64,000 nt of DNA. Source: Polynucleobacter sp. MWH-UH2A. GTDB taxonomy: Bacteria > Pseudomonadota > Gammaproteobacteria > Burkholderiales > Burkholderiaceae. Location: positions 1,798,001 through 1,862,000 of the forward strand of contig NZ_CP061321.1 of the NCBI RefSeq assembly GCF_018687195.1. The letters run 5' to 3'. A program made the translations under genes and the position numbers. The notes under the pieces were generated by a model. That model saw nothing but the letters and a program-made list of their open reading frames with translations. It searched no databases and had not been told where the DNA came from. Shown in pieces: positions 3,358 through 9,078 of this stretch. How positions within the stretch are numbered: position 1 is the stretch's first letter; each line of letters starts with the position of its first letter.

Positions 3358-4212
3358 TTACTTTTTTCTCAAAAAAGAAGGAATAAAGCTAAATTCCGCT
3401 TGAGCCGCCTGACTAGAAACAGGCTCTATTGGCGGGTTAAATATTGACCCCTGCCGTACCTCAGCAGCTTGAACTGGGTAGGTTGGGCGCATCACAATCT
3501 GGGGCTGCAATACCTGAGGAGCTTGCGCTTTTCGCCTTTTTACCTCCATGATCTTTTCATAAACAAAATCGCCGAACTCGATCATGTTCTCAGAAATAAT
3601 ACCGTTATCAATACGAAACCAAAAATCATTTAATACTTCATTATTAATTTGCGAGATTCGATATATCGGCGGGCAGATAGCGCAGTTATCTAAAAACTCC
3701 AATCCAAGGAATTTAATTTCATTGAGCTGATTACGATCAATGCGACTAGGGGCAACCAAGATGGTTTGCCCTTTTTGCTTTATCTTCATCATTTGTCTTT
3801 GAACATATTCAAGAATAAAGATTTCGGTGCTGGCAATCTCAACCTTGCTATTAGAGCTGGGCACAATAATGACATCAAATTCAAGCATGAAGTCATAAGG
3901 CAAGCCAAAAGTCCAAGTCAAATCTGCAATCGTAATTTCAGCATGGGCGCCATAGCGCCGTAGCGCTGCCTTAGCCTCAAGCATTGTTTGATTTGAGTTT
4001 TGCTGATAAGACAAGCCTGACTTATATGTCTGAATATTGGCGTGGGGATTTTTACTGATTAAGACTGATGAAGTGCCCTGTTTGTCGTAATCTATAAGCG
4101 AGACTTTATGATTTTTTTCAATGGCAATAAATCCAGCTAGATTAGCTGAGATTGTGCTTTTTCCCACCCCGCCCTTTTGGTTGGTAATGAGGATTTTAAG
4201 CTTATCTCTCAT
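3358..4212 (-). CDS. ParA/MinD-type ATPase with FtsZ-like C-terminal tail
   Basis: A 284-residue protein. The deviant Walker A motif NQKGGVGKST (residues 11-20) and SLIDYDKQGTSS (about 38-49) identify a ParA-superfamily ATPase, the class that positions plasmids, chromosomes, septa and protein cargo. The second Asp-x-Asp-x-Gln box reads DYDKQG, with Lys where Pro is usual. The ATPase fold ends near residue 225. It is followed by a Pro, Gln and Ala-rich, probably disordered stretch and a terminal FIPSFLRKK that resembles the FtsZ C-terminal peptide. The start overlaps the end of the Sel1-repeat gene by 4 bases (ATGA). It is the last gene of the five-gene operon. A plasmid-partition role is unlikely because no ParB or parS candidate is nearby. 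Confidence 0.85.
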   Translation of the reverse strand: MRDKLKILITNQKGGVGKSTISANLAGFIAIEKNHKVSLIDYDKQGTSSVLISKNPHANIQTYKSGLSYQQNSNQTMLEAKAALRRYGAHAEITIADLTWTFGLPYDFMLEFDVIIVPSSNSKVEIASTEIFILEYVQRQMMKIKQKGQTILVAPSRIDRNQLNEIKFLGLEFLDNCAICPPIYRISQINNEVLNDFWFRIDNGIISENMIEFGDFVYEKIMEVKRRKAQAPQVLQPQIVMRPTYPVQAAEVRQGSIFNPPIEPVSSQAAQAEFSFIPSFLRKK

Positions 4213-4880
4213 AGTAGCTTGTATAGCTGACGCATGTTCTGAGTCTTTGCATACATGTGCTGTGCCTCTTCAAGCTCCCTAGAAAAATCTTCCTTAACTG
4301 CATGTTGCATAATTAACAAGACTCTTTTAGCTTGATCATGTTTTTCTAAACTTGCGAGTGTAAGATAAAGAAACGCTTTGCGATGGTTTACTGGAACGAT
4401 CTCACCTTTGCCATAATAGCTGCCAACCGTATAGGCAGCTTGACGACTCCCTAGCTGCGCACCCTTTTCAAGCAACTCTAAGCCCCTATTGATATCTTGG
4501 GGAACTCCCTGTGCGGAGCCTGAACCGGTAATAAAAATATTTCCTAAATTACAGAATGCATCATGAACCTCTTCCTTGATGGCCTTTGCATAAAACTCAA
4601 CTGCCTTTTTAAAGTCGGGCTTACCACCAACTGTGCCCTGCTCATGAATTAAACCCAAGTTGTAATCAGCGTAACCATTGCCTCTAGCGGTCTCTCTATT
4701 GAGCCAGTTCATTAACCGCTCTGCTTGCTCCGTCTTTAGCAGGCCATCAAAGCACATCTTTACTAGGGCAAATTGGGCATCTGCGCTTAGTTCAAACTGC
4801 GCTAAATCAAAAAAGATATCAAACGCTGCATCATTTTTTCCATTTCGAAGATTTAATTCTCCCAGTTCCACGCTAGACAT
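4209..4880 (-). CDS. Sel1/TPR-like repeat protein
   Basis: A 223-residue protein without signal or membrane segments. Sel1-like repeats are visible from about residue 70: GYADYNLGLIHEQGT, DAFCNLGNIFITGSG and QAAYTVGSYYGKGE, each followed by a helix such as FKKAVEFYAKAIKE or INRGLELLEKGAQ. Such repeats are protein-binding scaffolds. The start at ATG 4880 is supported by GGAGA upstream. It is translationally coupled to the ParA-type gene (4-base overlap) and follows the TPR gene after 41 bases. The partner is unknown; the neighbouring ATPase is the obvious candidate. Confidence 0.8.
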   Translation of the reverse strand: MSSVELGELNLRNGKNDAAFDIFFDLAQFELSADAQFALVKMCFDGLLKTEQAERLMNWLNRETARGNGYADYNLGLIHEQGTVGGKPDFKKAVEFYAKAIKEEVHDAFCNLGNIFITGSGSAQGVPQDINRGLELLEKGAQLGSRQAAYTVGSYYGKGEIVPVNHRKAFLYLTLASLEKHDQAKRVLLIMQHAVKEDFSRELEEAQHMYAKTQNMRQLYKLL

Positions 4881-4921
4881 TGACTCTCCTTCTTAGCAAT
4901 TTTCTAATGCACTCAATTTTA

Positions 4922-5332
4922 TTAACTATTAGTTTGTTGATTTATTTGAATCACTTGATCAAGCAAGCCATTTGCCTCTGTGATACCTAGAGATAGGGCT
5001 TTTTTATAGGCCTCACCCGCTTCCTCGTATTGCTGCAGGTAATTGCAAACTAAGCCGTAGTGCAAGCTGGCCCTAGCCTTGTTTATTAAATATTCGTGGC
5101 GCAAGGCATCAAGCAAACTTTCAATCTCGGATTCATTTAACTGGCCATTAATTGCCATCTGACTTGTCTTTGAATAATGCTTTTCTGGAGACAAAGATTC
5201 GGCCTGCATATAGTGTCCAAATGCCACTGAGAATTGTTCATTCTTTAGAGCAAGATCACCACGCTCTAAATAATGCTTAATCACTTCAGATGAAGGCTTG
5301 GCGCTCAATTTATTTAATAGCCGAAAAAGCAT
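4922..5332 (-). CDS. Small TPR-repeat protein
   Basis: A 136-residue cytoplasmic protein. Two TPR-like helix pairs are visible: ERGDLALKNEQFSVAFGHYMQAESLSPE near residues 24-51 and a second near 94-120 (HYGLVCNYLQQYEEAGEAYKKAL). The gene starts inside the previous gene (23-base overlap) with no clear Shine-Dalgarno sequence, which suggests translational coupling. TPRs mediate protein contacts, so it probably serves as an adaptor in the same complex as the Sel1 protein and the ATPase. No closer family is recognised. Confidence 0.75.
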   Translation of the reverse strand: MLFRLLNKLSAKPSSEVIKHYLERGDLALKNEQFSVAFGHYMQAESLSPEKHYSKTSQMAINGQLNESEIESLLDALRHEYLINKARASLHYGLVCNYLQQYEEAGEAYKKALSLGITEANGLLDQVIQINQQTNS

Positions 5333-5543
5333 TTGGATCTATTGGGTAAGATTGAGCACCAATATCTGATAGATCAAATTGAATAAGCGCCCCTTCCCCT
5401 TCTTGATACTCCAAAATAGTGGCATCCCTGTATAAACTTACCACTTCGATACAAGCTTCACGCAAACTATCGGCATCAATGCGAATAGTTGAAATTGGGC
5501 TATTAGCAGTTTTGTTAACTCTAAAGCGAATTTTCCAATTCAT
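5310..5543 (-). CDS. Hypothetical 77-residue protein of the ParA operon
   Basis: I do not recognise this family. The longer frame from 5588 would overlap the upstream gene. ATG 5543 is preferred because an AAGGA box formed by the end of the upstream gene sits 6 bases before it, giving a 2-base gap to that stop codon. The 77 residues look like one small alpha/beta domain (WKIRFRVN, TIRIDADSLREACIEVVSLY, ATILEYQEG, LIQFDLS) with no signal or membrane segment. The tight spacing on both sides indicates it works with the HTH and TPR proteins. Confidence 0.7.
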   Translation of the reverse strand: MNWKIRFRVNKTANSPISTIRIDADSLREACIEVVSLYRDATILEYQEGEGALIQFDLSDIGAQSYPIDPNAFSAIK

Positions 5544-5545
5544 CA

Positions 5546-5863
5546 CTAATCCTTCTTTCGCAAAAATGCTGGAATTTCTATATCCCACTCCTTGGCGGTA
5601 GTGGACTGAATTTTCTTTGCAGGACTGGAAAATTCCTCTATGTGTGCGCTTATTTCCTTTGCATAAGCTTGGGCGCCTTCTATGAATTGATGAAATGACT
5701 TTTTGGTAGAAAATATATTGCCATCCTCAATTGCCACAAGCTCGACTACTGACATTTGTAATTTTGATGCAAGAATGGCCAAGTTATGGCCCTGCTTTTC
5801 TCTGTTAGCTCGTAGTTTTTTTCCTATTAATTTGGCTATTTTTATTTGTTCTACGTTAGCCAT
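5546..5863 (-). CDS. RodZ-like HTH protein with FtsZ-like C-terminal tail
   Basis: A 105-residue protein. The start at ATG 5863 is chosen over 5899 because GGAGGGGG lies directly before it. Residues 8-70 form a helix-turn-helix of the XRE/RodZ N-terminal type (GKKLRANREKQGHNLAILASKLQMS, then VELVAIEDGN and FHQFIEGAQAYAKEI). Unlike RodZ it has no transmembrane or periplasmic part. A short polar linker leads to the C-terminus EIPAFLRKKD, nearly identical to the FtsZ C-terminal peptide that recruits FtsA, ZipA and other division proteins. It is the first gene of the operon. It may regulate the operon, act as a cytoskeletal adaptor, or both; the sequence does not decide. Confidence 0.75.
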   Translation of the reverse strand: MANVEQIKIAKLIGKKLRANREKQGHNLAILASKLQMSVVELVAIEDGNIFSTKKSFHQFIEGAQAYAKEISAHIEEFSSPAKKIQSTTAKEWDIEIPAFLRKKD

Positions 5864-5892
5864 TGCCCCCTCCATAATGAGGGAAATACTAC

Positions 5893-5918
5893 TGAACATT
5901 CATGAGACTGAATATTCA
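5893..5918. promoter_or_regulatory. Tandem TGAAYATTCA operator-like repeats
   Basis: TGAACATTCA (5893-5902) and the perfect palindrome TGAATATTCA (5909-5918) have centres 16 bases apart, placing them on roughly the same DNA face. They lie 30-55 bases upstream of the HTH gene start, where a repressor or autoregulator would bind. A possible -10 (TATACT, minus strand) lies just beyond, near 5945. The site is seen directly; its function is inferred. Confidence 0.4.
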
Positions 5919-6393: not shown

Positions 6394-6714
6394 ATGAAAA
6401 CGCCCTTCTCAAAAATACTGAGCTTGTTTGTTTTTCTCGCCTTTGCGCCCTCGGGGGTATTTGCCGCTCAGATCTTCATCACCAACTACCCATCAGAAGC
6501 AAATGCAAAAGTCTTCGTCACGAAATATCCTTCGGAAGCTAATTGCATTGTGTATGAGACCCAATACTCCAGCGACAACGAACCTGGCGTATGGTTCTAT
6601 ACAAAATACAAAAGTGATGCCCGTGCCGTAATCTATTACACCCAATATAAATCCGATGCCGACCTTATTGTCTATTACACAAAGTACAAGAGTGATGCGC
6701 GCTGTCGTTATTAA
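6394..6714 (+). CDS. Secreted 7(1) septoil-knot domain repeat protein
   Basis: A 106-residue protein with a signal peptide (cleavage near VFA-AQ, residue 24). The mature part is six near-identical units of 11-14 residues with the pattern hydrophobic-Y-x-T-x-Y-x-S-D-A, for example QIFITNYPSEAN, GVWFYTKYKSDAR and LIVYYTKYKSDAR, plus a final partial strand CRY. This is the pattern of the small beta-rich septoil-knot family (formerly a DUF). Two cysteines (Cys51 and Cys104) could form a disulfide closing the fold. The family's function is unknown to me. It precedes the MOSC gene by 23 bases and may be cotranscribed with it. Confidence 0.75.
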   Translation: MKTPFSKILSLFVFLAFAPSGVFAAQIFITNYPSEANAKVFVTKYPSEANCIVYETQYSSDNEPGVWFYTKYKSDARAVIYYTQYKSDADLIVYYTKYKSDARCRY

Positions 6715-6737: not shown

Positions 6738-7349
6738 ATGCGACTACTTTCTATTTCTTCTGGCAAGGTGACGCCTTTATTTGGCAACCACCACCCAGAT
6801 TACAAATCTGTGCCATCTGCAATTCGTAAGACAAGCATTAGCAACCTACAAAATGCAATGGCTGTTGACATCAATAATCTTGGCGTTAAGGGTGATGAAC
6901 AGGCAGATCTCAATGTGCATGGTGGATTGGAAAAAGCGGTTTATGTTTACCCAACAGAACATTACACATTTTGGAATGAACTACTCACTCGCGAAACCAA
7001 AAAACCGATTGCTCTTCAACATGGTGCTCTTGGTGAAAACTTCACGATTGAGGGTCTACTCGAAACCGAAGTCTTTGTTGGCGACAAACTGGTGATCGGC
7101 GAACTGCAATTTGCTGTTACTAAATTACGCGAACCATGTTTTAAATTCAATGCAGCACTTGGCTACAAAGGTGCTGCTAAAGCCATGGTGCAATCGGGCT
7201 ATAGCGGCTGGTACTTACGGGTAATCAAGACAGGAATAGTCTCTGCAGGAGAAAGGATTCAGCTAATTCCCGGCCCAAGAGATACGTCTATCGCCCAGCA
7301 AAACCGAAATCTTTTAGCTAATCGCAATCAAAAAGATCTCTGGGATTGA
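6738..7349 (+). CDS. MOSC domain protein, YiiM-like
   Basis: A 203-residue cytoplasmic protein matching MOSC proteins of the YiiM type: an N-terminal beta segment (LLSISSGKVTPL), VKGDEQADLNVHGGLEKAVYVYP, the GENFTIEGL motif, and the conserved cysteine in KLREPCFKF near residue 136. MOSC domains bind molybdenum cofactor or carry sulfur through this Cys. YiiM proteins are linked to reduction of N-hydroxylated compounds. The start has no clear Shine-Dalgarno box, so coupling to the septoil-knot gene is possible. It is followed by a terminator shared with the convergent MFS gene. Confidence 0.85.
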   Translation: MRLLSISSGKVTPLFGNHHPDYKSVPSAIRKTSISNLQNAMAVDINNLGVKGDEQADLNVHGGLEKAVYVYPTEHYTFWNELLTRETKKPIALQHGALGENFTIEGLLETEVFVGDKLVIGELQFAVTKLREPCFKFNAALGYKGAAKAMVQSGYSGWYLRVIKTGIVSAGERIQLIPGPRDTSIAQQNRNLLANRNQKDLWD

Positions 7350-7356
7350 AATAAAA

Positions 7357-7380
7357 AACCCGATCATTTCTGATCGGGTT
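7357..7380. terminator. Bidirectional terminator between MOSC and MFS genes
   Basis: A 10-bp stem AACCCGATCA / TGATCGGGTT with a TTTC loop. The minus strand has a run of six T after the stem, so it serves the MFS gene best. The plus side has only TTTA after the GGG. Confidence 0.8.
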
Positions 7381-7407
7381 TAGCCTACTGCAGATATTGA
7401 CTACGCA

Positions 7408-9078
7408 TTAGTCACGCGCATAAATATCCACGTCTTTGGTTTCACGAACAAACAGTGTGCCGATTACTAAGGTAATAGCAGCAATGATGATTGGGTACCA
7501 GAGACCGTAGTAAATATTACCGTTTTGCGCAACCAAAGCAAAGGAGATCGTTGGCAATAAGCCACCGAACCAACCGTTACCAATATGGTATGGCAATGAC
7601 ATAGAGGTATAACGAATGCGGGTTGGGAACATCTCAACCAACATTGCAGCGATTGGGCCATAAACCATGGTTACCAAAATCACTAAGTAAACCAACAAGA
7701 GCAACACAGCAACATAGTTAATTTGTGCTGGATCTGCTTTAGTTGGATAACCCTCTTTGTTCAAAGCTTCGCGAATGGCCTTCTTGAATTCAGCATCTTT
7801 TGTTTTAGCTTCAGCAGGATCAATACCCTTAGCTGTATAGCCCTGAATTTCAATATCACCAATTTTTACTACCGCTGTAGAACCAGCTGGACCAGGAACA
7901 GTGCTATAGCTAGCAGAGTTTGAAGCCATCACCTGTTTTGCAATATCGCAAGAACTAGTGAATTTCGCTGTACCAGTTGGGTTGAACTGGAATGTACATT
8001 CATTCACGTCAGCAGTAATCGTTGCTGGTGCAGTTGCCATCGCTTTTTCTAACGCTGGGTTAGCGTAGTGAGTCAAAGCGTTAAAGACAGAAACTGGGGT
8101 GTTTGGAATGTAAGTAATTACAGCCAACAACAAACCACCCATAATGATGATCTTACGACCAATCTTGTCTGACAAGCTACCAAACACTACGAAGAATGGT
8201 GTACCGATAACCAAAGAAGCGGCAATCAATAAGTTCGCAGTCTTTGCGTCTACTTTCAATACTTGAGTGAGGTAGAACAAAGCGTAGAACTGACCGGTGT
8301 ACCAAACCACTGCCTGACCTGCAACCAAGCCAAACAATGCCAAGATAACAATCTTCAAGTTCTTCCATTGACCGAAAGACTCAGACAAAGGTGCTTTAGA
8401 TAACTTACCTTCTTCTTTCATCTTCTTGAAAGCTGGTGACTCATTCATGGATAAACGAATCCAAACAGAGATCGCCAACAATGCGATAGAAACGATGAAA
8501 GGAACGCGCCAGCCCCAAACATCAAAGTCTGGGCCAGTGAATTCACGTGTGAAGAGAATCACGAGCAAGGACAAGAACAAGCCCAAAGTAGCTGTTGTCT
8601 GAATCCATGCTGTGTAGGCACCACGACGGCCATGAGGCGCGTGTTCTGCAACATAAGTAGCAGCACCACCGTACTCACCACCCAAAGCCAAACCTTGAAG
8701 CATACGTAATGCAATCAAAATGACTGGGGCAGCAACACCAATGGTTGCGTAGTTAGGCAGAATACCGACGATGAAAGTCGCGCCACCCATCAATAAGATG
8801 GTTACCAAGAAGGTATATTTACGACCAATCAAATCGCCTAAGCGACCGAACACCAGTGCACCAAATGGGCGCACGATAAAACCGGCAGCAAACGCTAAGA
8901 GAGCGAAAATGAAGGCAGAGCCAGCATCTAGGCCTGAGAAGAATTGCTTAGCAATAATTGCCGCAAGTGAACCGTATAAATAAAAGTCGTACCACTCAAA
9001 AACCGTACCTAATGAAGATGCAAAAATAACCTTGCGTTCTTCTGCGGTCATTGGGGCTGCTTTATGCGCTGTTGACAT
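7408..9078 (-). CDS. MFS transporter, metabolite:H+ symporter type
   Basis: A 556-residue inner-membrane transporter. FEWYDFYLYG (TM1) and GRLGDLIGRK (loop 2-3) place it in the metabolite:H+ symporter group (ProP, ShiA, KgtP relatives), which takes up organic acids or compatible solutes with protons. It is about 110 residues longer than usual. Residues about 325-452, between predicted TM9 and TM10, form a soluble insertion with Cys361 and Cys377, probably periplasmic. The last helices and the signature GPIAAMLVEMFPTRIRYT follow. The gene stands alone between a terminator and a 211-base upstream gap. The substrate is not determined. Confidence 0.9.
   Translation of the reverse strand: MSTAHKAAPMTAEERKVIFASSLGTVFEWYDFYLYGSLAAIIAKQFFSGLDAGSAFIFALLAFAAGFIVRPFGALVFGRLGDLIGRKYTFLVTILLMGGATFIVGILPNYATIGVAAPVILIALRMLQGLALGGEYGGAATYVAEHAPHGRRGAYTAWIQTTATLGLFLSLLVILFTREFTGPDFDVWGWRVPFIVSIALLAISVWIRLSMNESPAFKKMKEEGKLSKAPLSESFGQWKNLKIVILALFGLVAGQAVVWYTGQFYALFYLTQVLKVDAKTANLLIAASLVIGTPFFVVFGSLSDKIGRKIIIMGGLLLAVITYIPNTPVSVFNALTHYANPALEKAMATAPATITADVNECTFQFNPTGTAKFTSSCDIAKQVMASNSASYSTVPGPAGSTAVVKIGDIEIQGYTAKGIDPAEAKTKDAEFKKAIREALNKEGYPTKADPAQINYVAVLLLLVYLVILVTMVYGPIAAMLVEMFPTRIRYTSMSLPYHIGNGWFGGLLPTISFALVAQNGNIYYGLWYPIIIAAITLVIGTLFVRETKDVDIYARD

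Follow-up and report, generated by a model that had tools for sequence, protein, structure and literature searches.

Polynucleobacter sp. MWH-UH2A (NZ_CP061321.1; one contig of 2,021,093 bases, 100% complete) carries a small operon whose first and last genes encode proteins that end in a peptide like the C-terminal tail of the division protein FtsZ, a tail usually taken to mark FtsZ itself. The operon lies in what we call the window, the whole stretch of 64,000 nucleotides that was analysed (contig positions 1,798,001 to 1,862,000), and coordinates below are those of the window. It is a run of five tightly packed genes, all on the − strand, reading from 5899 to 3358: a helix-turn-helix (HTH) protein of 117 aa, nearest to the cytoplasmic head of RodZ (5546..5899); a 77-aa protein without Pfam match (5310..5543); a tetratricopeptide-repeat (TPR) protein of 136 aa (4922..5332); a Sel1-repeat protein of 223 aa (4209..4880); and a ParA/MinD-type ATPase of 284 aa with the Walker A motif KGGVGKST (3358..4212).

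The HTH protein ends in EIPAFLRKKD (5549..5578, −; C-terminal sequence WDIEIPAFLRKKD) and the ATPase in FIPSFLRKK (3361..3387, −; C-terminal sequence FSFIPSFLRKK), so that I-P-x-F-L-[RK]-[RK] stands at the C-terminus of both. An earlier note on this DNA had pointed to these two peptides, to their place in the first and last genes of one operon, and to a likely disordered linker before each; all three observations hold. AlphaFold2 models give both proteins the layout of FtsZ, a folded domain followed by a stretch of low confidence and then the tail: the predicted local distance difference test score (pLDDT) falls below 50 at residues 93-105 of the HTH protein (5585..5623, −) and 234-274 of the ATPase (3391..3513, −), where disorder is predicted. 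The FtsZ of the same genome, encoded at ∼166.4–167.8 kb, ends in EIPAFLRKQAD (longer tail GADYYEIPAFLRKQAD), nearly identical to both tails, so that the comparison with the host tail, a test set by the note, comes out in its favour. The carriers are nonetheless not FtsZ: Pfam matches are of the ParA/CbiA type and HTH_25 only, with no tubulin-like GTPase domain in either, and the residues after RK are variable.

A degenerate DNA pattern for the motif hits 24 sites in the 2.02-Mb host genome. When these are read in frame, just four long open reading frames (ORFs) end in [IV]PxFL[RK][RK]: those of FtsZ, of the two window proteins and of a second ParA-type ATPase (G000:C1:606365-607255; L032:9315-10265) with the tail FIPGFLRKTTE (sequence ERFIPGFLRKTTE). 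By chance 0.007 such C-termini are expected per 2,000 proteins, a figure that takes the composition of 49 window ORFs and assumes a proteome of that size.

Conservation of the tails

A clear homologue of the window ATPase (E below 1e-30) is present in 31 of 121 genomes of the genus. The end [IV]PxFL is found at 29 of the 30 ParA loci returned, the window's own included, and, when all the ParA loci that were read are pooled, in 35 of 36 distinct proteins; a copy in genome G020 that lacks its N-terminus is excluded from these counts. In an alignment of 14 ParA proteins the linker is poorly alignable, and no protein departs from P, F and L in the tail. Public databases give the same picture: among the best 120 of 794 homologues, 116 have a loose form of the tail pattern and 112 have [IV]PxFL within their last 26 residues. 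Of the four that lack the loose pattern, two are short entries, a third runs past the tail and the fourth is a full-length protein (P0062); the other four outside [IV]PxFL read LPAFL, IPKYL, IPHYL and IPQYL.

Strong matches to the small HTH protein occur in 24 genomes of the genus (30 reach E 0.001), and all 24 loci of this protein, the window's own and L089 included, end in IPxFL. The tail is absent from L100 and L102-L104, weakly matching loci whose proteins are long and RodZ-like. Across 18 HTH proteins with 24–56% identity to that of the window, only eight residues never vary: in the head G, R, E and G, and in the tail I, P, F and L. The best 120 of 197 public homologues include 116 with [IV]PxFL; the remainder are two proteins with ISVFLRKK, one with IPVYLRKK and one that continues beyond its tail.

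The kept residues of the tail are written with many codons, which argues for selection on the peptide: over 34 ParA proteins, with the ILAFL locus described below left out of the count, we find four codons at the Pro position, seven at Ile/Val, five at Leu and two at Phe. Judged from the sequences, then, the tails are under selection, the motif being retained while the linkers diverge and the codons vary. FtsZ loci say less on this point than their number implies. All 24 that were collected end in IPAFLRKQAD, but they were recruited by the motif pattern itself, so that only the QAD end and the x residue count as free evidence.

A ParA profile run against 200 genomes drawn from the family reached E 1e-100 or better, among the matches listed, in same-genus genomes only; outside the genus the best of the listed matches was ∼1e-13, with ranges mostly confined to the Walker A region. 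Viral contigs returned 25 loci, all matching within query residues 1-84 and none containing a tailed ORF. A survey of tail carriers in 70 genomes of the order (40 fetched sites and 30 search-returned loci, some overlapping) gave, besides FtsZ-marked tails, one C-terminal tail on an ORF longer than 60 aa. This is a 157-aa protein of another family of the order (G346; L346:773-1246) that adjoins zorA/zorB-like genes, has no Pfam match and ends in DIDKIPSFLRKQQ. Of 20 further pattern sites fetched within the genus, two fall in VIT-vWA proteins; the others are either internal or close a frame that is short or doubtful, such as a 32-codon frame in G060 ending RIPSFLRKT.

Carriers of the tail and their genomic company

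The model of the window ATPase has a mean pLDDT of 82.5, with 174 residues at 90 or above and a confident ParA-type core; this fold, together with the KGGVGKS/T Walker A motif, places it in the ParA/MinD type. ParF, FlhG, FleN, ParA, MipZ, McdA and MinD are near-equal neighbours in fold, so that the fold does not tell the function. MipZ is a ParB-linked inhibitor of FtsZ polymerisation; the Pfam MipZ family does match the window protein (22.7 against a cut-off of 20.7), over residues 7-116 only and with generic ParA families scoring higher. Against solved members of the ParA, MinD, MipZ and FlhG group the best matches span the Walker A part only, and the window type differs from them by its C-terminal linker and FtsZ-type tail and by mostly lying near bactofilin genes.

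Genomic context tells more than the fold. In 21 chosen ParA regions, several of which end at contig ends, a bactofilin gene lies within ∼2.1 kb of the ParA gene in 18 and an M23-type peptidase gene within ∼4.7 kb in 15; one M23 protein was confirmed in Pfam, and the others were assigned by similarity to it and to two more. Bactofilins occur in all 31 ParA genomes and in 33 of the other 90 (Fisher 4e-11); for FliG the figures are 28 of 31 and 15 of 90 (2e-13), kinship among the genomes being ignored in both tests. Three bactofilin genes immediately precede the second host ParA gene; an M23 peptidase gene and one we take to be flhB-like are close by, and FliG is ∼34 kb away. Bactofilin is missing from three regions, namely the window, the first copy in G012 and a region of G054 at a contig end, and each of these has a tailed HTH gene within ∼2 kb of ParA. 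Pairs of bactofilin and an M23 peptidase (bactofilin-LmdC) form a known wall-shaping module, according to an excerpt of PMC10945521. The ParA clusters resemble it in holding bactofilin and M23 genes close together, and add to it a tailed ParA-type ATPase, a partner that the excerpt does not describe.

For the HTH protein, RodZ-type heads rank at the top in both sequence-profile and model searches (3fym, 2wus_R), with generic XRE proteins close behind, and the best PDB matches of its profile are RodZ-type proteins; HTH_25 (PF13413) scores 18.7 bits, under the cut-off of 24.6. With 117 aa the protein consists of head, linker and tail, leaving no room for a membrane segment: it differs from RodZ in having an FtsZ-type tail in place of the transmembrane and periplasmic parts, and the host has a separate, long RodZ-like protein (342 aa, a weak match). 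In E. coli, RodZ is reported to contact MreB and FtsZ via its cytoplasmic part, whose HTH domain does not bind DNA (PMC6946637, excerpt). Several small HTH genes adjoin sensor-histidine-kinase-like genes (L081-L083, L087, L088, L090 and L096), and L088 and L090 have response-regulator-like genes as well.

A third family came from the other pattern sites. It comprises VIT-vWA proteins, one of 775 aa encoded downstream of a MerR-type gene, with nine copies in seven of the 121 genomes; none was found in the window host. The FtsZ peptide is present in full in five of the nine, and PRVFRS is kept in three of the other four. Here the likeness to FtsZ is long. The G038 copy matches host FtsZ over 54 residues at 76% identity (E 2e-23) and the G018 copy over 61 residues at 67%, and the matches include the motif YD[LM]PRVFRSS. 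On these alignments the VIT-vWA tail is a captured FtsZ tail, by homology rather than convergence. As in the window proteins, an FtsZ-type tail is borne by a protein that is not FtsZ; unlike theirs, it is internal and carries the YDLPRVFRSS linker motif. Two copies have defence genes nearby: zorA and zorB in the case of the tailed G040 copy, and an HmaA-type helicase in that of G075. VIT-vWA genes are seen at L291:6045-8372, L292:6679-9006 and L295-L297, and the upstream MerR-type gene at L291, L292, L295 and L297.

No convincing match to a defence family came from the window proteins (none for the ATPase; E 0.0007 to a generic HTH for the HTH protein), and an anti-phage system was rejected as a candidate.

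Possible receptors and competing explanations

Residues I374, F377 and L378 of FtsZ are reported critical for binding ZipA (PMC8669495, excerpt), and I374 and L378 for binding ZipA, FtsA, MinC and SlmA (PMC4117426, excerpt). The retained I, F and L of the tails are these same positions, and the residues that vary are the one between P and F and those after FL. Among possible receptors in the host, a partial match to ZipA_C at G000:C1:1468595 exceeds the cut-off (positions 71-127 of 128). MinC_C has no match in the host genome in a search that was positive in six of 14 control genomes (MinC_N, MinD and MinE were not searched for). FtsA is presumably encoded by the gene that ends just before host FtsZ. 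On this MinC_C search MinC, one of the partners proposed in the earlier note, is rejected, and the note's idea of FtsZ-tail mimicry fares unevenly: it loses this partner and finds ZipA_C matched in part, and it gains a third family with a captured, homologous tail.

We read the tails as selected copies of the FtsZ peptide, since they share the peptide of the same host's FtsZ, keep I/V-P-x-F-L while the linkers diverge, and encode it with several codons. This suggests that several unrelated Polynucleobacter proteins keep the docking tail of FtsZ and may engage the division machinery in the manner of FtsZ. We put at roughly two in three the probability that the tails dock to FtsA and/or ZipA, which would place an ATPase/bactofilin module and a RodZ-type head at the division site, or let them compete there. 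Each tail would be a portable plug on a flexible linker, binding the host receptors of the FtsZ tail, above all FtsA and perhaps also ZipA. The ParA-type ATPase might then couple the wall-shaping module of bactofilin and M23 peptidase to the division site, or might take its positional cue from the receptors of the FtsZ tail. The HTH protein, for its part, would carry its RodZ-type head to the same receptors, either competing with FtsZ or co-recruiting partners of its own.

Several observations weigh against docking to these receptors. Conservation, which the earlier note had made a test of its claim, is high within the genus and not complete: the ParA locus L017 reads ILAFL (ILAFLIKQN), the full-length public protein P0062 lacks the motif, ISVFLRKK stands in two public HTH proteins, and some lineages have another residue in place of the basic one that follows FL (IPAFLSKQN, IPRFLIKQS). 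The nearest named ParA relative outside the genus, in a metagenome-assembled Burkholderiaceae genome (29%), has the ATPase domain without the tail (best 80 of 503 loci). Likeness of the ParA and HTH tails to FtsZ spans only 7–8 residues, too short to establish descent from FtsZ. Being present in 31 of 121 genomes, the ParA family cannot be needed for division across the genus. Around the window ATPase itself, the window's first 20 kb contain neither a bactofilin nor an M23 gene, and nine of the 24 HTH genomes lack ParA. Finally, a sensor-kinase-like gene adjoins the small HTH gene in seven of 15 loci inspected, and for that reason the small HTH proteins may have a transcriptional role.

The tails might instead dock to some other partner, such as bactofilin, the M23 peptidase or the 77-aa, TPR or Sel1 proteins, their likeness to FtsZ being convergence on a hydrophobic-basic motif. 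Short motifs converge easily, and ParA genes keep company with bactofilin genes, but the HTH proteins share the motif and no bactofilin gene was detected in five of the 24 HTH genomes; the motif is moreover that of the host's own FtsZ, and a third family bears an undoubted FtsZ tail. We regard this alternative as unlikely. Less likely still is that the tails are ClpX degrons, with FLRKK ends setting protein turnover. The FtsZ C-terminus and RRKKAI of MuA are among the ClpX signals listed in an excerpt of PMC8138137, and many of the HTH proteins end in FLRKK; a degron, however, predicts the reverse of what is seen, in which the last residues vary (RKK, RRSE, KKNKDTPE, LIKQS) and the inner I-P-x-F-L is nearly fixed.

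MinD, one of the fold neighbours of the window ATPase, has a short amphipathic membrane anchor at its C-terminus, and the tails, hydrophobic and basic, could be anchors of that kind. Their nearly invariant proline, the presence of only three bulky residues and the role of the same sequence in FtsZ as a protein ligand make this improbable. Chance resemblance has the shortness of the motif in its favour; it is rejected, and its probability is negligible, given 0.007 expected occurrences, the exclusivity of the motif genome-wide, and its retention in two families despite diverged linkers and varied codons.

If docking to FtsA or ZipA is correct, FtsZ-tail mimics would show how other cytoskeletal systems couple to the division site, would put natural competitors for FtsA and ZipA binding at hand, and would hint at added positional control in an organism where no MinC_C domain was found. 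The ParA–bactofilin–M23 cluster offers a testable link from a positioning ATPase to wall remodelling. A wider proposal, which we hold only tentatively and think somewhat short of an even bet, is that the FtsZ tail serves as a general plug in Polynucleobacter. At least three unrelated classes of protein (bactofilin-linked ATPases, soluble RodZ-type heads and VIT-vWA proteins) would dock on FtsA/ZipA; a single receptor site would then serve the tubulin, actin-adaptor, ParA and bactofilin systems alike, and competition for that site could switch or hijack division. The literature covered, outside which most subscription papers lie, returned nothing on Polynucleobacter together with bactofilin, nor on short-linear-motif mimicry of FtsZ/FtsA. 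The parts are of known kinds, and that literature did not show their combination, which is to this extent new.

Neighbourhood of the window operon

Beside the operon lie two genes (6738..9078, strand not assigned) that serve as a synteny anchor; we take them, from their sequences, to be MOSC-like and MFS-like. In G023 and G240 a bactofilin/M23/ParA cluster stands beside what are, by eye, the same two flanking genes, and the G240 cluster also holds a relative of the 77-aa protein. These parallels make it look as if the window operon derives from the bactofilin/M23/ParA cluster. The relative of the 77-aa protein in G240 adjoins ParA (47% over 57 aa), and another, in G051, adjoins an HTH gene (69%). 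The TPR protein has weak relatives (28–35%) downstream of three bactofilin/ParA clusters, and the Sel1 protein is 51% identical to a protein encoded downstream of the second host ParA.

A small, secreted-looking protein built of degenerate YPSEA/YKSDA-type repeats is encoded at 6394-6714, and a relative of it occupies the syntenic place in G023 (L042:11253-11573).

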